A stretch of DNA of 64,000 nt. Source: an uncultured Pseudomonadales bacterium. Its GTDB lineage: Bacteria; Pseudomonadota; Gammaproteobacteria; Pseudomonadales; Azotimanducaceae. Under the pieces are notes generated by a model, which did no database searches, was not told where the DNA came from, and saw only the letters and a list, made by a program, of their open reading frames with translations. The stretch's first letter is position 1. Every line of letters starts with the position of its first letter. Positions 14,181 through 33,106 of the stretch are shown here, in pieces. Location of the stretch: NCBI GenBank assembly GCA_958296025.1, contig OY282430.1, forward strand, positions 806,001-870,000, read 5' to 3'. Both the position numbers and the translations under genes were made by a program.

Positions 14181-17100
14181 GTGTTGATCCCTTCTTTGTC
14201 GGGGCATGGGTTCAGACACACCACCGGAAGTGCTTGCACGGCTTGCCGGGTCTTAATCCCTTCTTCATCAGGGCGTGGGTTCAGACGTGGTTGCTGGAAA
14301 CGACTACGGGGCTGGTAACCGAGTCTTAATCCCTTCTTCATCAGGGCGTGGGTTCAGACGCCTTTACCGCGCGGATGGCAACATTCCGCGGAGTCTTAAT
14401 CCCTTCTTCATCAGGGCGTGGGTTCAGACACGGGGAAAAAACGTAAAAGGCGCTGCCAAGCGGTCTTAATCCCTTCTTCATCAGGGCGTGGGTTCAGACT
14501 CGTTGGATGAAATCATTGACCGACGAGTTGCGTCTTAATCCCTTCTTCATCAGGGCGTGGGTTCAGACGAATGGCGGGCGAGACAAAACCCATCCTGCCA
14601 ACGTCTTAATCCCTTCTTCATCAGGGCGTGGGTTCAGACGGGACGGCTCGGTCGGGTTGCAGACTTTACTCCGTCTTAATCCCTTCTTCATCAGGGCGTG
14701 GGTTCAGACGGGACCCCGATCCCGTGATGCACGGCATGATTCGGTCTTAATCCCTTCTTCATCAGGGCGTGGGTTCAGACGTAAAGATGTGTCAGACAGT
14801 GATGACGTGATGTCTTAATCCCTTCTTCATCAGGGCGTGGGTTCAGACGTGAAGCGGCTTCGCAGCCATGAAAGGGTTGAGTCTTAATCCCTTCTTCATC
14901 AGGGCGTGGGTTCAGACCGGCGACGACCTGGAAATCAACCAATGAGCAAGGTCTTAATCCCTTCTTCATCAGGGCGTGGGTTCAGACGCGGAAGCGGCAA
15001 CCAAGATCCCAACCAAGGAATGTCTTAATCCCTTCTTCATCAGGGCGTGGGTTCAGACCTGCCGCGCCTAATTAACCGGCAAGGGTCGCCGCGGGTCTTA
15101 ATCCCTTCTTCATCAGGGCGTGGGTTCAGACGGAGGAACAAGAGGCGCAATCAGCGATGAAAAGGGTCTTAATCCCTTCTTCATCAGGGCGTGGGTTCAG
15201 ACGCAGCGGCGCTTGGGGCGTCCGTTACCCCGGCCGTCTTAATCCCTTCTTCATCAGGGCGTGGGTTCAGACGCGACGTGGACCGCAAGAAAGTCAAGGT
15301 TATCTGGAGTCTTAATCCCTTCTTCATCAGGGCGTGGGTTCAGACACTGGCCGCTCTGATGAGCGGCCAACTCCAGGCGTGTCTTAATCCCTTCTTCATC
15401 AGGGCGTGGGTTCAGACGCGAAACGTCCAACGCCTTTCGCGGCGCCAACGGCGTCTTAATCCCTTCTTCATCAGGGCGTGGGTTCAGACGGGCACTCAAT
15501 CACAACAGAGGATACAGCTATGTGTCTTAATCCCTTCTTCATCAGGGCGTGGGTTCAGACGTTCCAGGTGTTCGCCAACAACTGCCGCTGCCCCGTCTTA
15601 ATCCCTTCTTCATCAGGGCGTGGGTTCAGACCGCCATCGGCGAATCAATGCGGCAAGCCGCCGAGTCTTAATCCCTTCTTCATCAGGGCGTGGGTTCAGA
15701 CTCAGCGGGGGAAGATTCGCTGATCAGGCGGGCGGCGTCTTAATCCCTTCTTCATCAGGGCGTGGGTTCAGACGGATCTGAATGCAAAGGTAACCAGCGA
15801 ATGAGCGGTCTTAATCCCTTCTTCATCAGGGCGTGGGTTCAGACGAGGCCCGCATCCAAAGCAGTCGCAATAGGCGAGTCTTAATCCCTTCTTCATCAGG
15901 GCGTGGGTTCAGACCGGGGTGTCCTATTGCACCCAATTCCGCGGCTGGGTCTTAATCCCTTCTTCATCAGGGCGTGGGTTCAGACCCCGGAACGCCGCTT
16001 GAATCCGCCAAGGTTGACGTCTTAATCCCTTCTTCATCAGGGCGTGGGTTCAGACATCCGCCATCGCCTACCTTGACCGGGTGCGGTGGGTCTTAATCCC
16101 TTCTTCATCAGGGCGTGGGTTCAGACAAGTTCGCGGGGCGGTGGTGGTGCGGCCATTGCGTCTTAATCCCTTCTTCATCAGGGCGTGGGTTCAGACGCCC
16201 GGCCGAGAAGGGCTCCACCTTTGAGGTGGAGTCTTAATCCCTTCTTCATCAGGGCGTGGGTTCAGACTATAACTCGGGCGGGTTCGGCAGGCGAAACGGG
16301 GTCTTAATCCCTTCTTCATCAGGGCGTGGGTTCAGACACACCGCATGAACCATTTAGACGCCCAAACTGACGTCTTAATCCCTTCTTCATCAGGGCGTGG
16401 GTTCAGACCTTGACCGCAAGAGACCAACGCACCGGGCAGGAGTCTTAATCCCTTCTTCATCAGGGCGTGGGTTCAGACGCTTGAATGAAGCGCAGCAAAA
16501 CGCCTTGGTGTCTTAATCCCTTCTTCATCAGGGCGTGGGTTCAGACACACCGGTGAAGGCGAAGCCGCCGAGTAGCCATCGTCTTAATCCCTTCTTCATC
16601 AGGGCGTGGGTTCAGACGTACCGCGTCAAGCTGGCATGCACCGAATATGTCAGGTCTTAATCCCTTCTTCATCAGGGCGTGGGTTCAGACACTGCTCGGC
16701 GCTTTGGGCCTGGGCATGGCGCGGGGTCTTAATCCCTTCTTCATCAGGGCGTGGGTTCAGACACTGTTGCCAATGCAAGGATCCGCTGCCTGCCCAAAGT
16801 CTTAATCCCTTCTTCATCAGGGCGTGGGTTCAGACACAACAGTTATGTCGTAAACAACCGCCTCCAGCTGTCTTAATCCCTTCTTCATCAGGGCGTGGGT
16901 TCAGACGCCAACACCGACGAACTAGGGCGAAGGCCATGACGTCTTAATCCCTTCTTCATCAGGGCGTGGGTTCAGACCCGAAGGCGGCCAAAGCCTCGGC
17001 CAAGCCGAAGTCTTAATCCCTTCTTCATCAGGGCGTGGGTTCAGACAGCCCTACCTTGGCAAGAGCGCAAAAATGCAGGTCTTAATCCCTTCTTCATCAG

Positions 17101-17259
17101 GGCGTGGGTTCAGACGAAGACCGTCAAGGCCAAACCAACCAGAACCACCTAGTCTTAATCCCTTCTTCATCAGGGCGTGGGTTCAGACGGGGATCTGGTT
17201 GTTGCTGGGGGTGCCAAGTGAGGTCTTAATCCCTTCTTCATCAGGGCGTGGGTTCAGAC
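14181..17259 (-). CRISPR. CRISPR array, 44 repeats of 37 bases and 43 spacers of 31-36 bases
   Basis: I counted 44 units; all but one show the same 37-base repeat, which reads GTCTTAATCCC...GGTTCAGAC on the + strand. Read on the minus strand it ends GGGATTAAGAC, giving an 8-base crRNA handle ATTAAGAC like those of Cas6-processed type I/III repeats. The unit at 14181-14217 differs at 6 positions, as expected for the leader-distal end, so the array is read leftwards from the leader at 17260-17400. GTCT/AGAC at the repeat ends are complementary. Frames running through the array merely translate the repeat (LNPFFIRAWVQT) and are not genes. Confidence 0.97.
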
Positions 17260-17406
17260 CGCTCAAACTGATTTCGTCTTTCGCCTCAGTGACTTGTGAA
17301 GTGGGTTGTCTGGCTTCCGACGGCCAGCGAAGCTGACCGACCGTAGAGGCGCCAACCTTCCTTTCAGCAGACACGGAATTGTTAAAGAGCGCCTCCGTTC
17401 AGTCAA
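17260..17406 (-). promoter_or_regulatory. CRISPR leader with sigma-70-like promoter
   Basis: On the minus strand a -35 TTGACT (17406-17401), a 17-base spacer and a -10 AACAAT (17383-17378) point into the array. Transcription would begin near 17371, leaving ~110 leader bases before the first repeat. The -35 hexamer overlaps the stop codon of the last cas gene (17399-17401), so array and cas operon can be expressed separately. The rest of the leader has no coding sequence. Confidence 0.6.
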
Positions 17407-17683
17407 GGAGCAAAATGCCGTCCGGCAGGCTGGGCAAACCGTAAGCGGCATGGCGTCCGCTTGTCAATAGGGAATACGCACGGATATCGTCGCACTTTGG
17501 GTGGGTGAGGGGCTCAATTTCCGCCATCAAGCGTACGATTTCGCGCCGGGTCCCTCTTTTTCGGAAAACGGAGTATTGGACCGGCTCCGCGGTACGGGCC
17601 ATCTCTCGATGCACCCGCTGAAGCCGCCGGGGGTCAGCGATGTCATAGCAGATTAGCCATGAGACCTTTCGGCTGGCTGGCAT
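17399..17683 (-). CDS. cas2: Cas2-family protein, second copy (Cas2')
   Basis: This 94-residue protein starts at ATG 17683, which overlaps the Cas1' stop (TGATG); GTG 17686 is an alternative. It has the Cas2 ferredoxin-like start with the acidic residue in WLICYDIADPRRLQRVHR and the QYSVFRK turn. Cas2 dimers bridge Cas1 dimers during spacer integration. It is the last gene before the leader. It differs clearly from the other Cas2 (19419-19703), so this is not a recent duplication. Confidence 0.88.
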   Translation of the reverse strand: MPASRKVSWLICYDIADPRRLQRVHREMARTAEPVQYSVFRKRGTRREIVRLMAEIEPLTHPKCDDIRAYSLLTSGRHAAYGLPSLPDGILLLD

Positions 17684-18420
17684 CACTCAAGCTCCTTTAA
17701 GTAATGGTTTAGGCTGCGCAGCGTGTCGCGCAAGTGAAAGTCGCATGTATTGCGGTGCCGCTCGAAGAAGCTAACCGCAAGGTTGCCTTTTATCAAGGCG
17801 CGGCGTCGGCCCTGCCACCAAGTGATGAAATCGGGATGCAGCCCCCACTGAATCACCATAACGAGGTCGGGAACTATCAACGCCAAGGTTGTGTTGTCCG
17901 AGCCAAGGCCAATTTTTGCAAGTTCTTGCAAGCATCTTGAATGGGCCAAGCCGCGTATCTCCCTTTTGAATTCCCGCAGCTCTGAAATGTCCGAATCGAT
18001 TCCGCCCATAAGCATTGGGACAATGTTGCTGGAGCCATTCGGAGACCAACCCAAGCGCAGGGCGCAGAATCGAAGGGCGCGACGCCGAATGTTCTTTCGC
18101 CAGTTAGCGTACAGGGCGTCACAGTCTGGCCTGTCAAAGAAGTCCCGCCAGCGTTGCGCAAATTCGCTTCGTTTCGATGGGCGGCCAATCCATCGGGCTC
18201 TGGGGCCACCATCGGACTTAAGAAAACAAACTGTAATCCCCTCGTCCGCACACGCTAGGAGCGCTTCGGTGGACCAGGAGACCCTGCCGCTCACCGTAAC
18301 GCGGGAGATGCGGCCTAGCGGAAATCTCCGGTCGCTCTCAGCCGTGGTGGAAACCCGTAGGGCAGGGCCATCCAATGCAACGGAAAGCGGCTCTTTCCCG
18401 TCAAGATATAGCGGCTTCAT
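17683..18420 (-). CDS. Degenerate Cas1-like protein lacking the catalytic segment (Cas1')
   Basis: At 245 residues it is ~85 shorter than the neighbouring Cas1. The N-terminal half aligns with the Cas1 beta domain: both start LY(I/L)D, share the RV..(S/R)GR...ST..L...G..V pattern and continue into a helical region. The C-terminal half has no IEG glutamate, no HEP histidine and no acidic EPFRP motif, so metal-dependent integration should be impossible. Its start overlaps the cas1 stop (ATGA) and its stop overlaps the next cas2 start. It may act as a structural or regulatory partner of Cas1. Homology to Cas1 is inferred from the N-terminus and position only. Confidence 0.7.
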   Translation of the reverse strand: MKPLYLDGKEPLSVALDGPALRVSTTAESDRRFPLGRISRVTVSGRVSWSTEALLACADEGITVCFLKSDGGPRARWIGRPSKRSEFAQRWRDFFDRPDCDALYANWRKNIRRRALRFCALRLGWSPNGSSNIVPMLMGGIDSDISELREFKREIRGLAHSRCLQELAKIGLGSDNTTLALIVPDLVMVIQWGLHPDFITWWQGRRRALIKGNLAVSFFERHRNTCDFHLRDTLRSLNHYLKELE

Positions 18421-19412
18421 GTCTGGATTCCCTTCCCGGAACCGACGGTTGGTGGCCTAGTGGCGCGTCCACGCTTTTCAAAATCCCGTGCTGCCGTGGC
18501 TAGCTGACGACGAAGAAGACGGCGCAGCGCTACGCCTAGGGGAGCGAAACGCTCGTAGAAGTGCTGTCGTGCTGTTTTGCCAAGCAACACGGCGCCATCG
18601 TGTTTGCGAAATCCCTGTTCTTTAAGGATACGGTCCCGAAACAACGTCCACACCCATTCATCCACATGGGGGCGAAAAGGTTCAATGGCGTCCGCTGCAA
18701 GCGACTCACGGCCATAGGCTGGCTCGTGATACAAACCGAGCAAAGGGTCCAGACCGGCTGAATGGCATGCAATCACCGCTTCGAAATGCAGTAGTGTATA
18801 GCCCAAGGAAAGGCAGGCGTTGACTGGATCGGTCGGTGGTCTTCGTCGACGCCCCTTGAAGTTCAATGACGGAGGGAACAAGGTGGAGTAGGCGGAGAAA
18901 TACGCTCTCGCCGCGGAACCCTCTATTCCCAGAGTGCTGCCAATTTCAGGTGGTTCTGCGGGGGTGGCGAGCCGATCGTATGCAGATTGAAGCTGCGCAG
19001 TGGCCCGCACTAGAACGCGCCTCTTGTCGGGCCGCCTGTCAATGGCCTTGGCCAGCAGCCGAAGCTGCGCCTTGGTCTTCGCCGCAATCAGAACTTGACC
19101 CCACTGTACCCTAGCTTCCTTGTCTCCAAAGGCGTCAAGTTGGCCGATGCGTCGCCAGACGTCGTTGTGGGGACGGCCCACGCAGACGGCGAGCTGGCGA
19201 TTGTGGCGACCGCTGAGAACAAGCACCCCCGCCCCGGCTTCCGTGATTGCGCCGAGCACGGACGTCGATAGCTGAGCCCGACCGCGCAGCACAACGCGCT
19301 CCAGTTGCGCTAGGGGTACGGACCGAAGACGCCCTGCCGGCTCCCGAAATTCAAGAACGCCTCGGGTGACCCTGAGTTCGATATCCTTGCGATCAATGTA
19401 CAGCGTGCTCAT
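18417..19412 (-). CDS. cas1: CRISPR-associated endonuclease/integrase Cas1
   Basis: This 331-residue protein is a canonical Cas1, with Glu164 in LGIEGSAARAYF, His229 in GLYHEPAYGRESL, and Asp241/Glu244 in AADAIEPFRP forming the metal site. DPVNACLSLGYTLLH is the usual core helix. It inserts new spacers at the leader end of the array together with Cas2. It follows the first cas2 by 6 bases and overlaps the downstream cas1' by 4 bases, so the three are probably translated together. Confidence 0.95.
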   Translation of the reverse strand: MSTLYIDRKDIELRVTRGVLEFREPAGRLRSVPLAQLERVVLRGRAQLSTSVLGAITEAGAGVLVLSGRHNRQLAVCVGRPHNDVWRRIGQLDAFGDKEARVQWGQVLIAAKTKAQLRLLAKAIDRRPDKRRVLVRATAQLQSAYDRLATPAEPPEIGSTLGIEGSAARAYFSAYSTLFPPSLNFKGRRRRPPTDPVNACLSLGYTLLHFEAVIACHSAGLDPLLGLYHEPAYGRESLAADAIEPFRPHVDEWVWTLFRDRILKEQGFRKHDGAVLLGKTARQHFYERFAPLGVALRRLLRRQLATAARDFEKRGRATRPPTVGSGKGIQT

Positions 19413-19418
19413 TGCCAG

Positions 19419-19703
19419 TCATCCCACATAGTAGAAGTCCGGGTCAACGGCGGGAACGGCAATGCCCAGTAGAATGGGCTGGGTCCGTTCCTCGATCTGA
19501 AGAAGCGCAAACCGATCTTCCTGTTCATCAATAAGCGATTGCACCCTTTTCATTAGGCCACGACGCTCATGAGGGGTCAGAAAGCACTCGAAAACGGACT
19601 TTTGGCCTCCGGTTGCGTGGCATTTGACCGCCTCATGGACCTTGCGCAGTCGCCGCGGGTCGGCGACGTCATAGGCGGCGATGTAAAGCGCTCTTTTGCT
19701 CAT
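19419..19703 (-). CDS. cas2: Cas2, first copy
   Basis: This 94-residue protein has the Cas2 signature YIAAYDVADPRRLRKVHEAV and QKSVFECFL. It is the first gene of the four-gene adaptation block (cas2-cas1-cas1'-cas2'), preceded by a ~180-base gap that carries a 13-base motif also found before cas6. It is expected to form the central dimer of the spacer integration complex, or to compete or pair with the second Cas2 97 residues downstream of Cas1'. Confidence 0.93.
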   Translation of the reverse strand: MSKRALYIAAYDVADPRRLRKVHEAVKCHATGGQKSVFECFLTPHERRGLMKRVQSLIDEQEDRFALLQIEERTQPILLGIAVPAVDPDFYYVG

Positions 19704-19882: not shown

Positions 19883-21166
19883 TTAGCCGAGCTGTGGCGG
19901 TTCACTGGGTAGTTGAGGCAGTTCCTTTTTCAAGCCCACAGCTTGGGAAAGCGTCCTTAGCAGGGGCAAGAAATGGTCCTCAGTCCACAACCTAATATGT
20001 TGCCAGTCCTCAGCTGATACTGGGCGAAAACCGTGAGCTAGGATCGAGTTGTTGCGCACGTTTAGCAAGTCGCGAATCCTCGATTCATGATCCCTAACGA
20101 ATTCTGGGATAGGGCCGCCTTTGATAAGATGCTGTGCAGCCAGCCAAGCCTGCCAAAGCCCGATCTTGATCTTTCCGTCGCGTCTAGGCGCTGCATCCAT
20201 GTCAGGGGGCAGCGAGTCAGCGGGAAAATCCGCCGTTTCAATCCCCAGTTTGGTTAGCAATTGCCATTGGGCAGTCCATTCCATTAACCGGTACCACCGT
20301 GCGGCGGCATCATCGAAGCGGCCCTGCGCGGCGCGTCGTTCCGCGCTTCGCCAAAGGTCATAGAGGCGAGCGGGTTCCCCTTTCGGGTCGGTCCGATGCC
20401 TTAGCAATTTAAGCGTTGCTAGCATCCAGGGATAAGTCTCGCTAGTGCGGGCAGCGAATGGCCCGATGAGGTTAAAAGCCCCTTGATGGTCAAAGTCGTC
20501 CCAGCAAGTGAATGCTTGGCTTAGCGCTTGCAGCACTTTGAGTTGCGGCAAACCGGGGTTGTTGGCGGCAACTCGAATGCTGGCCAATCCTTCCGCTGCC
20601 TCTCGATAAGCGAACCTGCGCCAAGCGGCGAGATGCCGTGCCATGGCTCGCTGAAGGCGAAGACCGGCGATGCTGGCCTGCACGGCCTGCGCCGTATCAC
20701 CTTGTACGCGAGAAAGGTCTGGGCGGGGGCCGGCGACGAGCTGAAGCTCCACCTCGTTTCGCTCCAAGACCGCGCTTACCAGTGCCGCCGTCATTGTTTT
20801 GGTGCCCCCAGTGTAGTCCGCGATGAATGATGCATCAGGAAATTGCTTGGCCAGTCTCTCGATGGCGTTGCACATGGCAAAGTAGGCACCGTCCAAATCA
20901 TCCGCCGGAACGATTTCGAAACCAAACTGGTTGCTGTTGAGACCTGCTTGGGAGGGGATGTTAGGCAGTGTCGAGCTCGGATCGTCGGGTTTGGCCTTTA
21001 TAACGTTTCCCGCTCCAGTTACTTGGCGGACGGATCCCGGCCGTCCGGTCACCGGGTCCCGGTCTGTGCAGAAGAAGCAGATATACTGGGGCGAAACTGA
21101 TTTGATCGCCCTTAGAATTGGCTGATGAGCACCGCCCACCGTGCATAGCAAGACTGTATTTTTCAT
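19883..21166 (-). CDS. CARF-domain CRISPR effector, TIGR02710-like
   Basis: ATG at 21166 begins KNTVLLCTVGGAHQPILRAI, the first strand and nucleotide loop of a CARF (Rossmann-like) domain. ADYTGGTKTMTAALV near residue 140 is the second conserved loop. The C-terminal ~250 residues are helical and include RNNSILAHG, which fits the R-x6-H pattern of HEPN ribonucleases. Cyclic oligoadenylate made by Cas10 would bind the CARF part and turn on RNA cleavage. Start choice: a longer frame reaches 21196, but ATG 21166 overlaps the stop of a small upstream frame (ATGA). Confidence 0.8.
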   Translation of the reverse strand: MKNTVLLCTVGGAHQPILRAIKSVSPQYICFFCTDRDPVTGRPGSVRQVTGAGNVIKAKPDDPSSTLPNIPSQAGLNSNQFGFEIVPADDLDGAYFAMCNAIERLAKQFPDASFIADYTGGTKTMTAALVSAVLERNEVELQLVAGPRPDLSRVQGDTAQAVQASIAGLRLQRAMARHLAAWRRFAYREAAEGLASIRVAANNPGLPQLKVLQALSQAFTCWDDFDHQGAFNLIGPFAARTSETYPWMLATLKLLRHRTDPKGEPARLYDLWRSAERRAAQGRFDDAAARWYRLMEWTAQWQLLTKLGIETADFPADSLPPDMDAAPRRDGKIKIGLWQAWLAAQHLIKGGPIPEFVRDHESRIRDLLNVRNNSILAHGFRPVSAEDWQHIRLWTEDHFLPLLRTLSQAVGLKKELPQLPSEPPQLG

Positions 21167-21282
21167 GGAAAGCACTTTCCAAAAAAAGGTGCGCATCTAC
21201 CCCCAATGTAGGGCGCATAGATGGGCATATCACGAAACATCATCATCTGGAAGCTCTGCTTGCATCTCATTAGGTTGGCCAT
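21163..21282 (-). CDS. Possible small protein, 39 residues
   Basis: A 39-codon frame starts at ATG 21282 a few bases after AAGGA, and its TGA overlaps the ATG of the CARF gene. It contains MANLMRCKQSFQMMMF and two closely spaced Cys near the end; no family is recognised. The coupling geometry argues for translation, but the frame is short and could be chance. Confidence 0.3.
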   Translation of the reverse strand: MANLMRCKQSFQMMMFRDMPIYAPYIGGRCAPFFGKCFP

Positions 21283-22056: not shown

Positions 22057-22824
22057 CTATTCCTCGCAATTGCTGGGCACATGTGATGCTGGGCGGCAGG
22101 CTGCCGGCAGCGCCGCCAAATCCCCCGTGCGGACAGCCTCGGCCATTCTTTGAGGCAGCCCAACAAGCTGCACATCGAAAGTGGGCATCATAACGGGTTG
22201 GGAATCCCTCTCATGTAGGTCTTTCGGGGCGGCGGCAAGATCTGCGGCAAGGTGCCTCCGGCCCTGCCGGTTTAGGCGAGACAGGGCGAATTGCGCATCG
22301 CTCGGACAAGTCGAAGCGCAGACGGCCCAATCGTATAGGTCCCGGATGGCGATGTTAGGCCGCTGCCCTGGGCCGCGCATCATGCGCTTCAGTTTCCCCA
22401 CGAGAATTTCCGCATTGGATTCTGACAGAACGGGAGAGGCTTCAACGGAGTCGCGCCGTTCGCTCCGCATATCTAGGTAGATGTGCTGTGATATGCTGAA
22501 GGGAGTTCCTTTGACACTCCCATGCAGACCTCTGCCGCTCGGCCAGACGGCCGCGTTCCATGCTGTAGGCAATGACTTCAGAACAAACCACCATGGATCT
22601 TGGCTCATTTTCAGCAGATCGTTCAAGTCGGCCGGAGACATATGTAGGTCGATGTCGGTGGACCGCCTATGCGCGAAGCGGGCTTCAAGGATGCTGCCGC
22701 CTCCCATTCGCAAGCGATAGGCAAAAAGTTCGGATGGCAGTCCCCGAATGAGGCGTAGGAAGGGCTGCCGAAGACGTGCCGGGAGCGCCAAGTTGCCTGG
22801 CTGTGCGCCTTGCGTATCGGTCAT
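22057..22824 (-). CDS. AbiEii/AbiGii-type nucleotidyltransferase-like protein
   Basis: This 255-residue protein has the DNA polymerase beta-like nucleotidyltransferase hallmarks of the AbiEii family: GGGSILEARFAHRRSTDIDL near residue 41 (G-G/S...DxD) and later VGKLKRMM...IAIRDLYDW (Lys and Arg-Asp-Leu-Tyr-Asp motif). AbiEii toxins of type IV toxin-antitoxin systems add nucleotides to tRNA ends or other targets and stop growth. Here the gene lies 48 bases after cmr6 in the same direction and no recognisable AbiEi antitoxin is present. A CRISPR-linked role is inferred from position. Confidence 0.75.
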   Translation of the reverse strand: MTDTQGAQPGNLALPARLRQPFLRLIRGLPSELFAYRLRMGGGSILEARFAHRRSTDIDLHMSPADLNDLLKMSQDPWWFVLKSLPTAWNAAVWPSGRGLHGSVKGTPFSISQHIYLDMRSERRDSVEASPVLSESNAEILVGKLKRMMRGPGQRPNIAIRDLYDWAVCASTCPSDAQFALSRLNRQGRRHLAADLAAAPKDLHERDSQPVMMPTFDVQLVGLPQRMAEAVRTGDLAALPAACRPASHVPSNCEE

Positions 22825-22872: not shown

Positions 22873-24075
22873 TCACTTTCCTTCCAGCCAGCCTTTGATG
22901 GTTAGAGTGTTCTGATAGTCCTTGTCTCTATCGGGCCTCTTCTTGGCGCTGGTTTCCCTCCAGCACTTCTCTTCCCTCATTTTGTTTTCCAGCCATTTTG
23001 CAACCTCCATCTTCATATCGCCATCCCAGCGGCCGTCCCGAGCTGCCCGAATGACGGCTGCGATATCCGTCATGTTCTTATCTTGTCGGTCACGAATAAC
23101 TGCGTCAATCTCCCGTTCCGTCGGGGTTAGTTTTGCTAGCCGTTCCTCCTCCTGCTCTTTGATTTTCTTTTCAGCTTGCGCCCTTTTGTCCCTTTCACGT
23201 TCAATACGCTCGCGCTCCCCCTGTTCTTCCTGGGCCCGTTCTTCGCCTGCACGGTCCCTTTTCATCGCTCCATAGCCGACCGCCGTTTTGGCACCGAAGC
23301 CGAGCCAGTCGAAAGCGTGTTCAAAAGCGCGTTTGAGCAGCTTCTTCCAAGCACCATCTTCGGCAAGTTCCGGGGCGGTGCGCTCAAGGCGCTGCTGATC
23401 GCAGACCACATGGAACGTGAACGACGAGTCAGGCGGCACGGTGAGAAACAGGATGGAGTTTGGGCCGCCGGAATCGTGCGGGGACTCCCCGCCGCCGTGT
23501 TCCCGTTCCTTGTAGTAGTGGGAGTAGTGCGGCGTCATGATTTCCACCGCTAGGCGGTCGCTCTTGGTTTGCGGCATTACATCCCAGAATTGCAGGGCCC
23601 CGCGAACATGCAATCCTCGCTCTTCGAAACCAAAAAGATGCCAGATGGCCGGAAGCGTCCAGTGGCCGTCCTTGAAGAAGGCTTCGTGGGCGAGTTCCTC
23701 CGCGGAGCGGCGCAGTACGCCTTTGACGCCACTGCCGGGCAGATAGGGGAGGCCATAGGGGTTGATGAACGCAAATCCGTTCTCCAGCGGGTGTTCATTG
23801 CCCAAGCCGGTTGTGAATGGGGCGATGGAGGTGGACATCAATTGCAGGCCGTTGGCACCGGTCTGTTCGAATAGGGCTCGTTGCCGATGCGTGAAGGCGT
23901 TCATGGCGTTGCGGTCGGATGAATTGAGCGAAATGGCGTCGCCCAACGCTGGCCTCTTATCGTTGGGCTTTTTCCAATCCACGCCCCAGAGTTTCAAGTA
24001 CATGCCGAAACGCAGCGCCGGGGATGCGCTCTTGAAATCATTCCCCAAATACTCGGGTACTGCGGCAATCGGCAT
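22873..24075 (-). CDS. cmr6: Type III-B RAMP protein Cmr6 with long charged C-terminal tail
   Basis: Residues ~80-270 carry the Cmr6 RAMP core: STSIAPFTTGLGNEHPLENG, LPYLPGSGVKGVLRRSAEE (Gly-rich loop) and LGFGAKTAVGYG. Cmr6 caps the crRNA 3' side of the Cmr complex. The last ~125 residues are a Glu/Arg/Lys-rich coiled-coil (EERAQEEQGERERIERE) and then a small domain with Trp residues, which makes the protein longer than usual Cmr6. It starts 1 base after cmr5 stops. Confidence 0.9.
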   Translation of the reverse strand: MPIAAVPEYLGNDFKSASPALRFGMYLKLWGVDWKKPNDKRPALGDAISLNSSDRNAMNAFTHRQRALFEQTGANGLQLMSTSIAPFTTGLGNEHPLENGFAFINPYGLPYLPGSGVKGVLRRSAEELAHEAFFKDGHWTLPAIWHLFGFEERGLHVRGALQFWDVMPQTKSDRLAVEIMTPHYSHYYKEREHGGGESPHDSGGPNSILFLTVPPDSSFTFHVVCDQQRLERTAPELAEDGAWKKLLKRAFEHAFDWLGFGAKTAVGYGAMKRDRAGEERAQEEQGERERIERERDKRAQAEKKIKEQEEERLAKLTPTEREIDAVIRDRQDKNMTDIAAVIRAARDGRWDGDMKMEVAKWLENKMREEKCWRETSAKKRPDRDKDYQNTLTIKGWLEGK

Positions 24076-24076
24076 T

Positions 24077-24442
24077 TTAGCCCCCCTTCACCTGCTGCCG
24101 CGCCGCGGCCATCTGCCGCAGCCACTTGAGCCATGCGAACGCCTCGGCGGTCACCGCTTGGTATTCGGATGCTTCGGATTTCAGCATCTTTTCCATGAAT
24201 TCTGTGAAATCCGAAGGAACGCCGCACTGGTGGTTGAGCCAGCCCCTCAAATCGCTTGCCAGCCTTTCATGCGCATTGCCCTTGTTCCCTTTATCGTGCA
24301 GAAACGCCATCACCTGCATCAGTCCGCTGTTCATGATGAGCGCTGGCAGGCCCTTGGCTAGCTTCACATACTCGTCGCCGCAATTTTCGCACCGACTCCA
24401 AGCGTCTTGGGCGCGTTTCTGTTCCAATGTTGGTCCGGCCAT
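24077..24442 (-). CDS. cmr5: Type III-B small subunit Cmr5
   Basis: ATG 24442 with GGGAGG upstream gives a 121-residue helical protein starting MAGPTLEQKRAQDAW, the usual Cmr5 opening. LPALIMNSGLMQVMAFLHDKG is the central conserved helix. Cmr5 lines the target-RNA groove of the effector. The longer frame to 24523 overlaps cmr4 and is not needed. Four bases separate it from cmr4. Confidence 0.92.
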   Translation of the reverse strand: MAGPTLEQKRAQDAWSRCENCGDEYVKLAKGLPALIMNSGLMQVMAFLHDKGNKGNAHERLASDLRGWLNHQCGVPSDFTEFMEKMLKSEASEYQAVTAEAFAWLKWLRQMAAARQQVKGG

Positions 24443-24446
24443 TTCT

Positions 24447-26556
<2,110 letters not shown>

Positions 26557-26567
26557 GCTGCCCGACC

Positions 26568-29500
26568 TCAACCGTATGCCGCTGCTGGCGTTGCGTCGGA
26601 GGAACTGCCATCGGCCGCACTCGCTGGGCCAGTGCGGGCCTCCCGCGCCAAAAATTCGGCGACCCCGAGATATTGCTCCAGCCATGGATGCCGACCCTTC
26701 TGCGGGTGTGCCACGGCAAGGCCCGCGATGCGGCTCGCAAGCTCGGCCACGTTCCAGTTTCCCGCATCCGTCGGACTCGATTGCCGGTCGAACTGATATC
26801 CGAGCAGTTTGCCTAGCATGTTGGCGTCCGCATCCTCCGGTAGGTCCTTAAGCCAAACGAGGCTGTTGTACACGGCCCGTCGGGATACGGAAGGCTCGGC
26901 GAGGAAGCCGCCGACCTTCAGCAGCAAGTCCAAGGGATCGCCCCACTTCGCCGTGATCTGCACGGCCCCGCCCGAACGCTTTATGACCGAGAGGCTGAAA
27001 GAGTCCCGCCCGTTGTTCTTGGCCCGCTGCTCCGCCTCCCGAAGCTCGCGCATCACTGCGGCGAGGGGCGCTTGGTGATGGGCGATGACCGCGCCGCAGC
27101 TTGCGGTGGCCCCGCCCATCATGCGCATCAGCCGTCCCCTCCGGAGGGCGAACCCGTTCCCCAAAACAAGTTTCCCGCTCCGGCGCGCCGCTTTCCAATC
27201 CGGAGAAGCATTGTTTGCGGCATCACCTTCTCCACTGTAGGCCTGACGCAGTCGGCGCATCGCGGGCAGGAGATCGGCAACCGGCAGCATCGCCATCACA
27301 TCGTCGCCGCCAGCGTACAGCACACGGCCCAAGAACTCGCCTTCAACGATTTCAGGCACCACATGCAGCGCGAAATCGTTTAGGGCTGCGGAGATCGCCA
27401 AATGGCGATTGGGCGACATCGCACGTTGCTGGTCGCCGTACTCCTTGATCGCCGAGTTTTCGCGGGCGTGAGACTTGAACCCGTGCTGCACTTGTGGATG
27501 GAGGCTGTCCAAGTAGGAGATCGTGCATCTCGGACCATCACCGGTTGCGCTCTCATCGCCGGAGAGGATTCGCCCCATGTGGTCTCCGTCCATCAGCAGC
27601 AAGGCGTAGTAGGTTTCGATCTGGCCTTTAACGCCAAGGGCATTCTTGACCAGTTTCATCGCTCTTTGTTGCGCTTGCTCGTCGTCTTGGTCGGCGGCGA
27701 CTTCCAGCAGGCCGGGTAACTGCTTGGCCCACCGCGCTACAGCAGGGTCGCCTCCGACCATCCGCATCAGCTTGCGTGGCAATGCGACCGGATGCACACT
27801 GTCGATCTCGACGCGGTCATTTTCGGCAAGCGCTTTCCGTGCAGGATTTCCGAGGAATCGCTCGATGTGCTTGGCCAATGCCATCGTATGTGTCGATACG
27901 ACGAAGCGGCTGATTTGTCCGGCCTCAACACCGACGATTTTGGCGACTTCTTCGGCAAACAGCGTCGGCCAAAGTCGTTTTATGGCCGGCAGGGCACCGA
28001 GATGCTCGCCGGCCTTGGCCCAGGCTGGCTTAGCTTTTGCCACTTTCGCCCAAAGCGTTTCTTTCTGATTGCGGTATGACCGATAAAGTTGTATCTCGTC
28101 AGCGGTCAGCCACTCGGTCTCGCCGGTCAGCGAGCAGCGCCAGCCCGCCTGCCGGGTTTGCTTGAACGGCCGCACTGCCTTAGCCGCGGCAAGCGCCCGC
28201 TCGGCGAGATCGTAAACCGCTGGGTAAAGGACGCCAGGATTCGGCGCAAAGAAGGTCGTGTTGTCATCCCATTGGCGATCTTCTCGCAGAACTTTCCACG
28301 CCGGCGAGGCGAGAAACCCGCTCTCGACATCTGACGCCACACCGAAGAAGGGTGCCATCGTCTCGGAAAGCGAAGTCGTATCGAGATCGGTCTGTCGTTC
28401 GGCATCTCGGGGCCGGATCAGAGAAAACGGCACAACTGCCCAATGTACCTCGGGAAAACCGTGGAGTTGCTCGCACATCTGCTTGTAGGCATGCACAGAC
28501 TCGTCTCGCACGTCGTTCTTCCGTCGAAGCCCAGCCACCTCCAGGAGACGGTCAACCACGCATCCGCCCAACGACCTTAGCCAATCGCGCACATGCTTCT
28601 CGACCGCCTTGACGATTTCTTTGGCTTCGCTTGCCGGGACGAGAGCCACGAAACGGTTCGGGAGTGCCGCTGAGAACAACCGATTGGCGTCAGTTTTTGT
28701 CTTGGCCCAGTCGCAGTTTTCGCGGTTGTCAAACCACTCCCGCGGCAGTTCGCATTCGTCACGAAGCCAGACGTCCACCTGCGGAATGCCGCGTAAGCGG
28801 GGAAATAGGATGGCGTCTGGACCGAAACGCTTGCACACTACCTTGGTTGCCTCCCACGACAACCGTGCCAGCAAGTGGGACCCTGCCCACAAGTCCGAAG
28901 TGCTGCGAGCCGCCGCGATGAAACTCTGAACCGGACCAATGGAAAGCGCGAGCAAGGCAGCCTCTCCGTCCAGGTCCGCTACGAAGGCACCGGCGAATGC
29001 TGAGGTCAGGTCGAGGTGATCCCAGATGGAGTGGTCGGGAACGCGGGTGTCGGCCGGCAGCAGTGGCCAGAGTTGACCGAGCCAGCCATTGTCCTCGTCT
29101 TCGCCAAGTTCGGGTCCGAAACGCCAATAGGCGAACAAGGTCCGTTTCCAATCGACTGCCTCGTCATTTCTGACGATGAGGCGCTCCAAGTGTGCGCGGC
29201 TGCGTTCCTTGATGTCGTGGATGTCAGTGTCGGCAAGGGAGATCAAGTCGAACTTCTTGCCGTTGAGCGGATGGATCAAAGTGGGTTGTTTGGTCCAGCG
29301 CACCTGCGCCCAATCGGCGACTTTCCTAGTTCGACCGTTGTTGGTTGTGATCTCTTCCATCGGCCACTGAGGGCGATCAGCTGCGGATGCCCACCAGTCC
29401 GCTCGCTTGACGGTTCTATACATGGATGTGGGAATGCCGTTTTTGAACAGGATGGTATCCAGGGCCATCGGACCGTCTGCCATCAGCATCCCAGATTCCG

Positions 29501-29657
29501 GGATGCTGTCGAAGCCGAGCAGCCGATGCAACGCCCTTGATGTGCCGCCTTCGTGGCCGGCCGGATCGCGCAGCAGCACCAACGCCTTCTCCGCCGGGTC
29601 GTGCAGGCGGGCGTGGAGCTTGGTTTGCCAGAGCTCATCATTGGCCGAATTGCTCAC
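26568..29657 (-). CDS. cmr2: Cas10/Cmr2, type III-B large subunit with active cyclase motif
   Basis: This 1029-residue protein has an N-terminal LHDPAEKAL (His19-Asp20), a partial HD-type start. GPVQSFIAAARSTSDLWAGS near 245 is the Cmr2 palm-like domain signature. GRVLYAGGDDVMAML places GGDD at residues 783-786, the polymerase-type site that makes cyclic oligoadenylates on target RNA binding. RCSLTGE near 520 may be half of a zinc site. It overlaps cmr1 by 4 bases. With two CARF genes in the operon, signalling is the likely main output. Confidence 0.96.
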   Translation of the reverse strand: MSNSANDELWQTKLHARLHDPAEKALVLLRDPAGHEGGTSRALHRLLGFDSIPESGMLMADGPMALDTILFKNGIPTSMYRTVKRADWWASAADRPQWPMEEITTNNGRTRKVADWAQVRWTKQPTLIHPLNGKKFDLISLADTDIHDIKERSRAHLERLIVRNDEAVDWKRTLFAYWRFGPELGEDEDNGWLGQLWPLLPADTRVPDHSIWDHLDLTSAFAGAFVADLDGEAALLALSIGPVQSFIAAARSTSDLWAGSHLLARLSWEATKVVCKRFGPDAILFPRLRGIPQVDVWLRDECELPREWFDNRENCDWAKTKTDANRLFSAALPNRFVALVPASEAKEIVKAVEKHVRDWLRSLGGCVVDRLLEVAGLRRKNDVRDESVHAYKQMCEQLHGFPEVHWAVVPFSLIRPRDAERQTDLDTTSLSETMAPFFGVASDVESGFLASPAWKVLREDRQWDDNTTFFAPNPGVLYPAVYDLAERALAAAKAVRPFKQTRQAGWRCSLTGETEWLTADEIQLYRSYRNQKETLWAKVAKAKPAWAKAGEHLGALPAIKRLWPTLFAEEVAKIVGVEAGQISRFVVSTHTMALAKHIERFLGNPARKALAENDRVEIDSVHPVALPRKLMRMVGGDPAVARWAKQLPGLLEVAADQDDEQAQQRAMKLVKNALGVKGQIETYYALLLMDGDHMGRILSGDESATGDGPRCTISYLDSLHPQVQHGFKSHARENSAIKEYGDQQRAMSPNRHLAISAALNDFALHVVPEIVEGEFLGRVLYAGGDDVMAMLPVADLLPAMRRLRQAYSGEGDAANNASPDWKAARRSGKLVLGNGFALRRGRLMRMMGGATASCGAVIAHHQAPLAAVMRELREAEQRAKNNGRDSFSLSVIKRSGGAVQITAKWGDPLDLLLKVGGFLAEPSVSRRAVYNSLVWLKDLPEDADANMLGKLLGYQFDRQSSPTDAGNWNVAELASRIAGLAVAHPQKGRHPWLEQYLGVAEFLAREARTGPASAADGSSSDATPAAAYG

Positions 29658-30781
29658 TGTCCAGCCCTCACCTGATTTGCCCTGAACAGCGTCCTCTCTT
29701 TGTCCAGTAGGCTATGTATTTCTATCCAGACTTGCTCTTGGTTTTCATTCAACCAACGGGCATCCGCTGGCGAAAGCTTCGCTCGCAACGGCTTGGGGAT
29801 GCTGTATGGAACATGGAAGACCATGCCGCGCAACTTGCCTTCCCATTTAACCACTTTGAACCGCAACGGGCTGGCTAGACGCGACTGTTCGCCCCAGTTG
29901 TTGACCTTCCAACTTCCGCCCGCGGGGTAGCCCAACAGATGGATGCCGCCGATTTTTCCCGATTTGTGATTTTTTGCCGTTCGACGCACAGCTACGAGAA
30001 TTTGGGCGAAGCGATTCATGGAATCCCACCAATCATTGTATGGTTCCGTCACCCAGATCAACGGGCCACGATCATCGCTGCCGACGCCACTTGCCCAATC
30101 GGTTCGCAGACACTTCTGCCAAGGCTGGACTATCCTGTTCAACAGCGGATTTCTTGGCATGGCGTTCACTGCGACGATCCGCCCATCTTCGGAAAAAGAT
30201 TCAAGTGATCCCCACCCATTTCGGCTTCGTGACCCAAGAGTGCCAAACCAGTGCATAAGTTGCATGGCATCGCCAACAGCTTGTCTTTCTTCCGGCATAG
30301 TTTTCGCTAGCAATCGGAGGGTTACAGATTTCCCCTCGGCTATCGCTTTGTGGCCCAACTCGACCGTCTTCCGGCCTTCGCTTTTGCTTGGCGGCAAGAC
30401 AGGGCCGTATCCGAGATACACATCGCTCCGCACCCTTCCTTTGCCATCGCGTGTTGTTGCTACTTGCTTGAACTTCCCGTTTGGCCAGCTGTCGGTGGTC
30501 AATGCCCCTTCCTCCCAAGAGTCTAGGCGCAACCTGACTTTGCTGCGGGATGCCCAAGCCTTCCCCGCACCGTCCTTGAGCCAAGCGTGACCGAATAGCC
30601 TTCCCTCGGCCTGTCTCATTTTCTCGAAGTCGTTGCCATATTCTTGCGCCACAGCCACCCGCCACCAATGCCGTAGCAGCGCCTTGAAGGGCGGCGTTCG
30701 CCATTGGCCGTTTTGCTCGGCGTTGCCGAGAAAGGCCGGGGTCAGGAACTTGACCTCGTAGCTCATTTGATGCATCGACAT
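29654..30781 (-). CDS. cmr1: Type III-B RAMP protein Cmr1
   Basis: The family start is YEVKFLTPAFLGNAEQNG followed by TPPFKALLRHWWRVA, the Cmr1 RAMP signature that replaces free 3' RNA ends in the complex head. GTLGSRSRNGWGSL near residue 190 is the glycine loop. ATG 30781 is chosen; TTG 30805 and ATGs at 30775 and 30766 are in frame. The 3' end overlaps cmr2 (ATGA). Confidence 0.9.
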   Translation of the reverse strand: MSMHQMSYEVKFLTPAFLGNAEQNGQWRTPPFKALLRHWWRVAVAQEYGNDFEKMRQAEGRLFGHAWLKDGAGKAWASRSKVRLRLDSWEEGALTTDSWPNGKFKQVATTRDGKGRVRSDVYLGYGPVLPPSKSEGRKTVELGHKAIAEGKSVTLRLLAKTMPEERQAVGDAMQLMHWFGTLGSRSRNGWGSLESFSEDGRIVAVNAMPRNPLLNRIVQPWQKCLRTDWASGVGSDDRGPLIWVTEPYNDWWDSMNRFAQILVAVRRTAKNHKSGKIGGIHLLGYPAGGSWKVNNWGEQSRLASPLRFKVVKWEGKLRGMVFHVPYSIPKPLRAKLSPADARWLNENQEQVWIEIHSLLDKERTLFRANQVRAGQ

Positions 30782-30810
30782 TGCGGTATTCCGTGCTTGC
30801 GCCAACTGTA

Positions 30811-31983
30811 TCAGCGTTCCTGCTCGGTTGACGAGTCCGCAAGGTTGCGGCCGGCGATATGCACCACCTCACGGGGCAAATCCAATCCAAAGCGCCGGTA
30901 CCGCGTACCGGGAATGTGGTCCTGTTCCTTGACGAGATAGGGCGCGGCTCGGCGGCGGCCTACATGGCTCTCGAAGCTCCTCTTGATGTGGGCCTTGATC
31001 GGATTGACGTTCTCACCAGTGAGTCCGCGTTGGACGGCCTGCTCCGCCCGCTCGTACTCTGCCGACATGGTGCTGACGAGGCGCCCGTAGTAGCCCAAGA
31101 ACTCCTGCGCATACCGATCGTCGCTCCAATGTGTGCCGCCCCGGCCATCTAGCAAACGCTCTGCCAGCATCCAATACAAGGCGAATCGGTTGGGCAGCAA
31201 GCTGAAAGTCTCGCCCGCAATGGTTGCCGACCTGCAGGCTGGTTCGAGCTGCAACGCCAACGGCGGCAGTGCCCGCTGTGCATTGGCTACTGCGCCGGAG
31301 AAGTTTGCCTTTCCCCCCATCAGTTCGGAATCCAAGCCTTCGCGCATTCTCACAAACGGAATCTCCGCCAGCGTCACCTCGGCGTCCCGGGCATCGTAGG
31401 GCCTGCCGCTGGGACCGGGCGTGTGGATCAATTCGCTCTTCGGCGTCGGGTAGAAAAAGCCCGGATGCGACTCATAAGGTGCGTTGACCAGCACATGGGA
31501 GAGCCTGTCTTGGATGCGCCCGTACAGCGAAAGGGCGTAGCCGAGGTAGAATCCCATGGTCTTGCGCCCGCCGGCGATGGAGACGTGAAGTGCGTTGCCG
31601 TCGTCGCTGGTCAGTTCTCGCATCAGCTCGGTGATGGCGTCGGCAGCGGCAGTGTTGTCCGCCTCGTTGCGGATGTCGCCTAGAGGGTTGCCGTTGGCGT
31701 CCCGCAGCACATGGATTTGCTCAGGTCCGAACGCGATGGGAGGCAATTGGTGGTCTGCACATAGGCGGTGAAACCAGCCGGTTTGCTCATGCAGTAGGGA
31801 TAGCTGTGCCCGCTGAGCGCCTTCCTCGGTGGTGATGAGCCGCACTTCGGTGGGGATAAACCGAGGGGGCTGCGCAACCGCAAGGGAGTACAGGGTCTCG
31901 GTGACTATTTGCGGGGACAGTCCCGTAACGGCCACTAAGATGCGGTGCGGGTAGCTTCCCGGATTCGTGTTTTTTGGTTTCAT
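30811..31983 (-). CDS. CARF-domain protein of the NE0113/TIGR02584 type (Csm6-like or ring nuclease)
   Basis: ATG 31983 lies 14 bases after cas6. The N-terminal part has HRILVAVTGLSPQIVTETLY, PTEVRLITTEEGAQRA and HVSIAGGRKTMGFYLGYAL, the CARF core of the NE0113 family. The C-terminal ~180 residues are helical without a clear R-x4-6-H motif, so it may cut cyclic oligoadenylate (ring nuclease) or act as an effector. Its place between cas6 and cmr1 fits a signal-response gene. Confidence 0.82.
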   Translation of the reverse strand: MKPKNTNPGSYPHRILVAVTGLSPQIVTETLYSLAVAQPPRFIPTEVRLITTEEGAQRAQLSLLHEQTGWFHRLCADHQLPPIAFGPEQIHVLRDANGNPLGDIRNEADNTAAADAITELMRELTSDDGNALHVSIAGGRKTMGFYLGYALSLYGRIQDRLSHVLVNAPYESHPGFFYPTPKSELIHTPGPSGRPYDARDAEVTLAEIPFVRMREGLDSELMGGKANFSGAVANAQRALPPLALQLEPACRSATIAGETFSLLPNRFALYWMLAERLLDGRGGTHWSDDRYAQEFLGYYGRLVSTMSAEYERAEQAVQRGLTGENVNPIKAHIKRSFESHVGRRRAAPYLVKEQDHIPGTRYRRFGLDLPREVVHIAGRNLADSSTEQER

Positions 31984-31996
31984 GGCGGTAGCAGCC

Positions 31997-33043
31997 CTAA
32001 AGTCGATTCGGTGCGGGCCATTGCGGTTGTTTGGATTCTTCACTGTCGCCTGGGCCAACCGGCTCCAATGCATACCGGCCTAAACCCATTGTGCAGCCCT
32101 TGCCGAGGTGGGTCCATTGCCCAAGCTGGAGGCAGGGCCAGAAGGGTGTGAGTTCCGGGGATTCGATCTCGAAGGTTCCAACCAGCCCGCCCATGGGGAT
32201 TTTGGCGCGTTGGCGGGAGGAATGGCGCGACCATTCCCGCCAGCTGAGGTCGGAGTTGGCAACTGGAATGCTCTCCGCTTGCCGAACGAGGCCGGCGAAG
32301 TCCGTCTCCCAAGGTGCGTCGCCGAAGAAGTAGTTCAGCAGGGAAAGGCGGCGCAGCAGATTGCCGGCGAAGGCGCGGAAGCTGAACGCCGAGGGACCGA
32401 CCAGGCGCTCGTTGCGCCGAATCCGCAGCGGTGAGATCAGCCGGATCTTGACGGACGAAGGGGCCGGCGGTGCCTGTTCGGAGGGAATCGTCCCCAAGCC
32501 GTCGCTCAAGTCGTGCGCAGCCCGCCAGTTGTTGCCCGGATCTGGGCATTCGGCTTGAACGTCCAGCAGCTCTAATTTCACCTGCCGGGCAGTCAGTCCG
32601 CCACGGCCCGCCAGCTTCAGCGCCTCGACGATGTGCGGAATCTGTGCATTCGCCCGTCCGAACAGGGTGAGCCCAAGGTTAACGGTTTCGCCATCCGAGT
32701 CGTAGCCATGATCGGCCGGCTCCAGGACATAGGGGTTGGGAGTGCGCGGATAGAGTGCCAGCTTCTTCGCGTCAGGCGGCGTTCTGTTCTCAAAGACAAA
32801 GGGGTAGGGGCAGGAGTCGAGCAGGGCACAGCCGTCGCATTCGGGCAGCCCCGTGACGCATACCGTTTGCTTGAGCGCATGGCCGAACGCGCCGCGCCAA
32901 GTGGAGCCCAAGTAGCCGGCGCGGACGGAGCGCAGGGCAGCCCGACTGCCGGGATTGCGCTCCCGGAACCGTAGGCGATACCGCCGTAGGTGCAGCAGGG
33001 GTAGGATGCCGGCTTGCAGTTCGGACGCATTCTCATTTGGCAT
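31997..33043 (-). CDS. cas6: CRISPR precursor-RNA processing endoribonuclease Cas6
   Basis: This 348-residue RAMP protein has a probable zinc knuckle, CDGCALLDSCPYPFVFE, near 75, and a C-terminal glycine-rich LGKGCTMGLGRYAL, as in Cas6 of the PF10040 type. It would cut the array transcript inside each repeat to leave the ATTAAGAC handle. ATG 33043 is used; GTG 33073 is an in-frame alternative. It is the first gene of the leftward operon. Confidence 0.9.
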   Translation of the reverse strand: MPNENASELQAGILPLLHLRRYRLRFRERNPGSRAALRSVRAGYLGSTWRGAFGHALKQTVCVTGLPECDGCALLDSCPYPFVFENRTPPDAKKLALYPRTPNPYVLEPADHGYDSDGETVNLGLTLFGRANAQIPHIVEALKLAGRGGLTARQVKLELLDVQAECPDPGNNWRAAHDLSDGLGTIPSEQAPPAPSSVKIRLISPLRIRRNERLVGPSAFSFRAFAGNLLRRLSLLNYFFGDAPWETDFAGLVRQAESIPVANSDLSWREWSRHSSRQRAKIPMGGLVGTFEIESPELTPFWPCLQLGQWTHLGKGCTMGLGRYALEPVGPGDSEESKQPQWPAPNRL

Positions 33044-33106
33044 GGCAATCAGGGCGCTTTGAGGTCGAGGCACAAAGATACAACAACCAAACCGGCTTCA
33101 CCGTAG

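Follow-up and report, generated by a model that had tools for sequence, protein, structure and literature searches.

A putative non-catalytic Cas1 paralogue and a second Cas2 in a recurrent four-gene CRISPR adaptation locus

Why would a CRISPR adaptation locus encode both Cas1 and Cas2 twice, and make one of the two Cas1 proteins without an active site? The question is raised by a 64,000-nucleotide stretch of DNA from an uncultured Pseudomonadales bacterium (contig OY282430.1, positions 806,001 to 870,000; hereafter the window). On its minus strand the genes cas2, cas1, cas1' and cas2' stand in this order, with a type III-B effector operon on one side and a CRISPR array of 44 repeats on the other. 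A preliminary description of the window had reported four tightly packed genes, and this was borne out to the letter: all four frames are open, and the junctions consist of a 6-base gap, an ATGA overlap and a TGATG overlap. Our answer, which we hold with moderate confidence, is that the locus provides a type III system with a heteromeric integrase, Cas1/Cas1'-Cas2/Cas2', for spacer acquisition, and that Cas1' serves in it as a dedicated subunit without catalytic activity. Since the same four genes recur in the same order in many bacteria, the inactive Cas1' probably has a structural job to do rather than being a broken copy.

Is Cas1' a Cas1 at all? PF01867 matches the window protein above its cut-off (36.7 versus 22.3 bits) over residues 14-85, the N-terminal part only, and matches all 11 Cas1' proteins scanned (E up to 0.1). 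TIGR00287 stays below its cut-off on the window Cas1' (32.6 versus 71.7 bits) and recognises 10 of 28 family members at E up to 0.001. A comparison by hhalign of a profile of 28 Cas1' proteins with one of their 28 partner Cas1 proteins yields a probability of 98.2 and an E-value of 5e-14 over 259 columns. An AlphaFold2 model of Cas1', built from five sequences (mean pLDDT 79.2, pTM 0.65), places beta structure at residues 2-77 and helices at 87-244, and so predicts the two-domain Cas1 fold of a beta N-terminal and a helical C-terminal domain. Searched with Foldseek, this model matches 148 PDB chains at E up to 0.001, and the 50 listed are all members of the Cas1 family or casposases; the best match is a casposase (E 9.2e-8), Cas1 entries come next, and the listed alignments extend over 204-341 columns, gaps included. 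Among the matches is 2yzs, entitled 'uncharacterized conserved protein' in the PDB, which we take to be the Aquifex Cas1; its sequence also matches that of the partner Cas1. Judged by these profiles and by its predicted structure, Cas1' is a true Cas1 homologue. The view that it keeps the N-terminal beta domain has therefore held, and both the profile comparison and the structural search confirm the kinship with Cas1 on which the preliminary description depended.

Has this homologue kept an active site? In the partner Cas1 the catalytic set noted beforehand (Glu164, His229 and Asp241/Glu244) is present; all 28 partner proteins carry E164, H229 and D241, and at position 244 there is a Glu in 26 of them and an Asp in two. 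In the profile-profile alignment the window Cas1' has G129 at the position of E164 and A180 at that of H229, with gaps opposite the stretch just past H229 and opposite RRPP of the RRPPxDPVN motif. Neither the E164 nor the H229 position of Cas1' holds a conserved Glu or His. The claim that Cas1' lacks every catalytic residue stands for the Glu and the His and has to be given up for the Asp: D185 of the window Cas1' aligns with D241 of Cas1, and an Asp occupies this column in 17 of 28 Cas1' proteins, so one metal-ligand position is often kept. Columns D17, D185 and E220 are the only ones in which an Asp, Glu, His or Lys is the commonest residue in at least 14 of the 28. Because the Glu and the His are missing, Cas1' is not classed as an active Cas1, a candidate identity ruled out on these residues; by its sequence the protein is catalytically dead. 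Conservation is concentrated elsewhere. The mean share of the commonest residue is 0.47 over residues 1-77, compared to 0.32 over residues 78-245, and the family signature, near LDGPAL, lies in this best-conserved N-terminal domain, which is the dimerisation part in known Cas1 structures.

How widely is the arrangement distributed? We found the order cas2-cas1-cas1'-cas2' on one strand in 31 genomes, the window's included. Vineibacter carries no group label; the others belong to at least 18 family-level groups. The 31 comprise 20 genomes of a class sample and loci L012, L013, L014, L015, L046 and L048-L053. Four loci have blemishes: the contig of G632 (L053) ends within cas1', leaving cas2' out of view; a contig end truncates cas2' in G1201 (L075); the cas2' frame of G861 (L093) spans 73 amino acids only; and in G044 (L012:9016-9989) cas1 is split by a frameshift, either a sequencing error or decay, with cas1', cas2 and cas2' open and array repeats following. 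Recurrence in 30 other genomes puts the layout far beyond chance. Together with the single Cas1' clade described below, it also rules out a recent duplication in this genome only.

These counts come from several searches that score only some candidates per genome and thus give lower bounds; deep sampling covered the Pseudomonadota alone. A protein search of 195 relatives identified four genomes, the window's among them, whose loci show all four genes, and a scan of genome contigs returned four loci, three in those same genomes and a new one in the alphaproteobacterium Vineibacter terrae. Cas1' profiles (E up to 0.001) matched 10 of 390 genomes in the order and 30 of 398 in the phylum. The stronger new matches (G282, G540, G556, G597, G639, G566 and G632) show the four-gene order as far as their contigs reach. 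The weaker ones inspected were ordinary Cas1 loci, save G221, which has no gene resembling the window's; nine weakly matching genomes of the phylum search (E 3e-5 to 8e-4) lay outside the inspected set. All three genomes sampled from the family of G597 carry the locus, again as far as contigs reach, and 74 genomes sampled from the family of G540 yielded no additional one. The PADLOC profile PDLC01185, run over 369 Gammaproteobacteria genomes, matched 18 at E up to 1e-6, including the window's, and none of 14 control genomes; all 18 have the four genes in order and on the same strand, one cas2' being cut by a contig end. In the reverse test, a partner Cas1 profile matched 21 of the 369 genomes at E below 1e-120, with an adjacent Cas1' in 20 of these 21 and not in G995. 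Four further matches followed at E 1e-81 to 2e-71; in G992 the Cas1 is cut by a contig end, and three are in another layout. The co-occurrence across genomes that the preliminary description proposed to examine is thus close, and the gene pair is neither absent from relatives nor decaying in them generally (31 genomes; one of 21 loci decayed). On plasmids, the window Cas1' found no match, and the Cas1' of L059 found one weak match, a long Cas1 encoded on a plasmid of Tistrella mobilis, where a single cas2 is present and the four-gene order is not. The partner Cas1 (E up to 1e-30) matched four plasmid records, of which the three examined, Allochromatium tepidum being left out, are all without Cas1'. 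A scan of viral contigs found no relative.

Are the two Cas2 proteins copies of each other? Both exceed the cut-offs of PF09827 or TIGR01573 and qualify as Cas2. Compared with the window Cas2', the Cas2 of four loci reach 28-32% identity and the Cas2' of the three remaining ones 52-55%. In a Cas2 tree the Cas2' proteins (27) form one group with a support of 0.88 and the partner Cas2 proteins (29) another with 0.99; the 20 ordinary Cas2 do not form a single group. The impression that the two Cas2 are clearly different was therefore correct. The partner Cas2 further possesses a near-fixed C-terminal tail, DPxFYYxG in the window's group (19419-19445, the end of cas2). In 28 other loci a Tyr is third from the end in all 28 and a Gly is last in 25; perhaps Cas1 or Cas1' docks at this tail.

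The four genes are also closely packed outside the window. Our packing survey took in all of the 31 loci but L093 and L096; starts were chosen by rule, so an individual value may be inexact. Throughout these 29 loci the genes in view share a strand. An overlap joins cas1 to cas1' in 20 of the 29, measuring exactly 4 nucleotides in 14, and cas1' to cas2' in 19 of 28. For cas1', two close pairs give ratios of nonsynonymous to synonymous substitution rates (dN/dS) of 0.16 and 0.41, values that speak for purifying selection in both, and 27 of 28 aligned Cas1' members are 244-270 residues long and free of stops. Across 26 loci the distances between Cas1 proteins correlate with those between Cas1' proteins (r=0.57), a value reached in none of 2000 permutations.

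What do trees suggest about the origin of Cas1'? In a tree of 28 Cas1', 28 partner Cas1 and 22 ordinary Cas1 (two of the latter being repeat fetches of one locus), Cas1' forms one group with a support of 0.91 and the partner Cas1 a weak one with 0.43. From a second Cas1 tree the repeat fetches and three other ordinary rows were removed. Here the two-Cas2 clade as a whole receives a support of 97, and a sister group with a support of 100 unites Allochromatium vinosum pALVIN01 (L119) and L099-L101, loci with the order cas2-cas2'-cas1 and no Cas1'. On the simplest reading of these sister loci the two Cas2 genes predate Cas1': the two-Cas2 trait looks the older, and the trees point to a two-Cas2 ancestor. 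The reverse sequence of events, in which Cas1' would be older than the second Cas2, is unsupported, as members of the sister clade encode two Cas2 without a Cas1'. Two genomes, G1112 and G1201, contain the cas2-cas2'-cas1 layout alongside a four-gene locus.

How, then, might a dead Cas1 be of use? PMC12259127 describes a Cas1-2/3 integrase with active Cas1 at both ends of the repeat channel, inactive Cas1 subunits as the walls and a Cas2 homodimer as the floor; this complex is C2-symmetric, yet must meet the leader in a given orientation. A Cas1' with the dimerising domain and without the catalytic loops is what would be expected of a subunit permanently given the wall seat. In the module considered here, Cas1 would perform the chemistry. 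Cas1', its N-terminal beta domain kept and its helical domain slimmed, would take the seat of the inactive Cas1 and wall the repeat channel, Cas2 and Cas2' would most likely bridge as a heterodimer, and all four proteins may come together in one complex. The benefit could be, for example, a more efficient or an oriented capture of prespacers free of a protospacer-adjacent motif (PAM). Type III guides must be antisense to transcripts to work. Is the integrase even hard-wired for asymmetry? A Cas2-Cas2' pair would break the two-fold symmetry of the bridge, and Cas1' would mark one seat or lobe, allowing PAM-free discrimination of prespacer ends or of the leader side and a preferred spacer orientation. 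We regard this extension as tentative and rather unlikely. PMC9048733 reports that type III systems, as far as tested, need no PAM for direct adaptation.

Several findings weigh against an integrase built around Cas1', or at least limit what can be claimed for it. The TM-scores of the Cas1' model against the listed entries, taken by query length, are low (0.28-0.46), and root-mean-square deviations above 10 mean that the relative placing of its two domains is unmatched. As a control, a poor model of the partner Cas1 (four sequences, pLDDT 58.1) had as listed matches Cas1-family entries or Cas1-holding complexes at TM-scores of only 0.21-0.31; low values for Cas1' are therefore no argument against its fold, weak as this control is. 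cas1' evolves faster than cas1 (dN/dS of 0.16 versus 0.07 in one close pair, 0.41 versus 0.14 in the other). The distance correlations of the other gene pairs, at 0.33-0.58, about equal that of Cas1 and Cas1'. Similar values in all pairs speak for joint inheritance of the genes and neither for binding nor for a special coupling of Cas1 to Cas1'.

A further objection is that Cas1' seems to have been lost. Three loci inside the four-gene clade, in G995 and on Sphaerotilus sulfidivorans pSna507_unt13 and Aeromonas media pMC64A, are without it and retain Cas1, Cas2 and Cas2' in the order cas2-cas1-cas2'. Their nearest neighbours are four-gene loci, with supports of 80, 90 and 99 (that of the enclosing clade is only 61), and the simplest reading of the trees is three separate losses. 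In G995 (locus L086) visual inspection of the frame past cas1 suggests that its beginning resembles roughly the first 20 residues of Cas1'; a tblastn search with the Cas1' set did not return this putative remnant among its six best matches. The catalytic residues of Cas1 are retained in all three loci, as they are in the four sister loci. The Aeromonas media locus has an array of 25 repeats, two spacers of which match Aeromonas phages (97% and 100% identity over 32 and 30 bases), which suggests that a relative without Cas1' has captured phage DNA, unless the spacers predate the loss. Both protospacers are on the coding strand of a phage gene when the array is read in the plus direction; if transcription of the guides runs the opposite way, which the shape of the repeat, shared with the window, suggests, both guides would be antisense to the transcript. 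These are two cases and prove nothing about orientation. Cas1 can thus probably work without Cas1'. Taken together, the losses and the phage-matching spacers argue that Cas1' is probably useful and not obligatory, and the fixed heterocomplex of the preliminary description was too strong a claim.

Could Cas1' instead act outside the integrase core? In other systems Cas4 and Csn2 find, trim or hand over prespacers, and Cas1' might be an accessory adaptation factor of this kind, or one that links the integrase to the type III effector, with the Cas1 fold serving merely as a scaffold to bind DNA or protein. Its less conserved helical domain and faster evolution would suit such a role, and loss tolerated in three loci is what one expects of an accessory. 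The place of cas1' between cas1 and cas2', where start and stop codons often overlap, fits it less well, and the N-terminal Cas1 domain, as the best kept part of the protein, is better accounted for by a place in a Cas1 dimer. We consider an accessory role possible but unlikely. The same losses can be read differently, with Cas1' as a regulator that competes with Cas1 for Cas1 or Cas2 partners and, through inactive mixed complexes, limits costly uptake or self-acquisition. A dead paralogue is the classic dominant-negative design, and loss of such a brake would leave a working integrase behind, as the Aeromonas spacers suggest. However, a near-fixed link of Cas1' to its own Cas2', in one order and across at least 18 family-level groups, bespeaks a part and not an optional brake, and we think this explanation distinctly improbable.

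That Cas1' is simply a decaying duplicate without a function would agree with its missing Glu and His and with G995, where the gene is gone and an apparent remnant of its start is visible by eye. A decaying gene would not be expected beside a close partner Cas1 in 20 of 21 cases, nor in 27 of 28 members at 244-270 residues without a stop, nor with a dN/dS below 0.5 in both pairs tested. On the length and dN/dS evidence we reject decay, to which we would concede hardly any probability. A non-catalytic subunit of the integrase remains, on balance, the reading that we prefer.

Canonical Cas1-Cas2 integrases (types I-E, I-F and II-A) resemble this module in joining a Cas1 with an E/H/D site to a Cas2 bridge. 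In these, both Cas1 seats are filled from one gene and both Cas2 seats from one gene. The present module, in contrast, has two genes each for Cas1 and Cas2, with one Cas1 apparently dead. The triads on Allochromatium vinosum pALVIN01 and in L099-L101 share with it the two Cas2 and a Cas1 of the same clade; they have no Cas1' and branch outside the four-gene clade. Those of Sphaerotilus sulfidivorans and Aeromonas media are likewise without Cas1', branch inside the clade and are read as losses. The natural series cas2-cas2'-cas1, cas2-cas1-cas2' and cas2-cas1-cas1'-cas2' is thus a ready comparison set, and with a dead Cas1 and each half of the Cas2 bridge on genes of their own, separate deletion or labelling becomes possible. 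In reverse transcriptase (RT)-Cas1 modules a reverse transcriptase is paired with an active Cas1. They, too, are altered forms of Cas1 in type III systems (PMC9048733), whereas Cas1 and Cas1' of the window are plain proteins of 331 and 245 residues.

Has the family been seen before? The PADLOC profile PDLC01185, 'Cas1, diverged variant, second in the loci', gives 48 bits on the window Cas1', over residues 4-122 only. It matches 11 of 11 Cas1' proteins scanned and, with 246 positions, is of similar size; by this match and as the second Cas1-like gene of its locus, the window Cas1' belongs to the family so named. The presence of a profile matching all 11 in PADLOC-DB (2023) means that the protein family had already been noticed. 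Labels of this kind probably go back to the gene-neighbourhood studies of Koonin and Makarova. Nothing in the name points to a function, a four-gene order, a loss of catalytic residues or a second Cas2. Among open-licence papers our literature search found none on the layout or function of the Cas1' family. Set phrases for a second or inactivated cas1 are absent from PMC12669027, PMC5513706 and PMC6452270, and the phrases 'two cas1' and 'second cas1' do not occur in PMC3150331; 'two cas1 genes' or 'second cas1' does occur in PMC4406477, PMC5626976 and PMC6998098, papers beyond those read. The statement that no system with this layout had been described thus remains valid for the papers searched, but not for the protein family, which has its profile.

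The features of the locus are listed in Table 1. For cas2' the ATG start is used; the open-reading-frame tool begins one codon earlier, at a GTG. In the window array 43 of 44 repeats are identical, and the repeat farthest from cas2' (14181-14217) is degenerate, with 6 mismatches in 37 positions. Because this degenerate repeat sits at the far end, we place the leader end at the cas2' side. The repeat is unique to this array in the 3.9-Mb genome, with up to 2 mismatches allowed. The effector operon is assigned to type III-B by Cmr2, Cmr4, Cmr5 and Cmr6, which exceed their NCBIfam cut-offs; Cmr3 falls below its own and Cmr1 is unmatched. The operon also contains a gene of 255 amino acids (22057-22824) that no NCBIfam model matches and to which PADLOC gives only a weak AbiEii-like assignment (E 5e-4); it possibly encodes a nucleotidyltransferase.

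Table 1. Positions of the adaptation genes, the array and the type III-B genes in the window.
Feature	Position	Strand	Remarks
CRISPR array	14181..17259	-	44 repeats of 37 bp, 43 different spacers of 31-36 bp; strand is that of presumed transcription
leader-like stretch	17260..17398	-	139 bp; separates cas2' from nearest repeat
cas2', second, different Cas2	17399..17683	-	94 residues from ATG; QYSVF type; PF09827 48.7 bits; TIGR01573 24.6 bits (cut-off 24.5)
cas1', predicted catalytically inactive Cas1 paralogue	17683..18420	-	245 residues; beta domain ~2-77, helical domain ~87-244
cas1, catalytic partner	18417..19412	-	331 residues; E164, H229, D241, E244; PF01867 226.7 bits over 4-289; TIGR00287 191.2 bits
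cas2	19419..19703	-	94 residues; GGQKSVFEC type; C-terminal tail DPDFYYVG; PF09827 50 bits; TIGR01573 33.2 bits (cut-off 24.5)
CARF-HEPN effector, Csx1/Csm6-like	19883..21196	-	TIGR02710 163.2 bits; PADLOC CARF1--CARF_HEPN 422 bits
cmr6	22873..24075	-	TIGR01898 105.9 bits
cmr5	24077..24523	-	TIGR01881 40 bits
cmr4	24447..25457	-	TIGR02580 205 bits
cmr3	25369..26685	-	TIGR01888 72.1 bits, under curated cut-off 100.4
cas10/cmr2	26568..29657	-	1029 residues; GGDD motif; TIGR02577 213.7 bits
cmr1-like RAMP gene	29654..30805	-	named by position, between cas10 and CARF gene; no NCBIfam match
CARF protein, ring-nuclease Csm6 family	30811..32073	-	TIGR02584 244.8 bits
cas6	31997..33073	-	PADLOC Cas6 305.4 bits; no NCBIfam match

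Arrays and effectors accompany the module elsewhere as well. Among 15 loci (the window and 14 others) an array lies at most 240 bp past cas2' in nine and before cas2 in two; the remaining four show no array of three or more exact 24-mers. A phage search with the arrays of three four-gene loci (the window, L110 and L014) gave no match. NCBIfam models identify Cas10/Cmr2 of type III-B beside the four genes in the window, L012 and L103, and Cas10/Csm1 of type III-A in L104, L105 and L116 (Vineibacter). All effectors recognised beside four-gene loci are of type III; with the window proteins as the only queries, no effector was identified in L102 (16 kb) or in short stretches such as L113 and L115. 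The Cas1'-less triad on Sphaerotilus sulfidivorans pSna507_unt13 (L117) adjoins BREX genes, and no type III effector is among the genes listed for the 17 kb inspected. The genome of the window has a second adaptation gene, a Cas4g/Cas1g fusion (L011:8207-10135, at about 468 kb of G000:C1; NF049935, 809.7 bits), so that another CRISPR type is probably present in the same bacterium.

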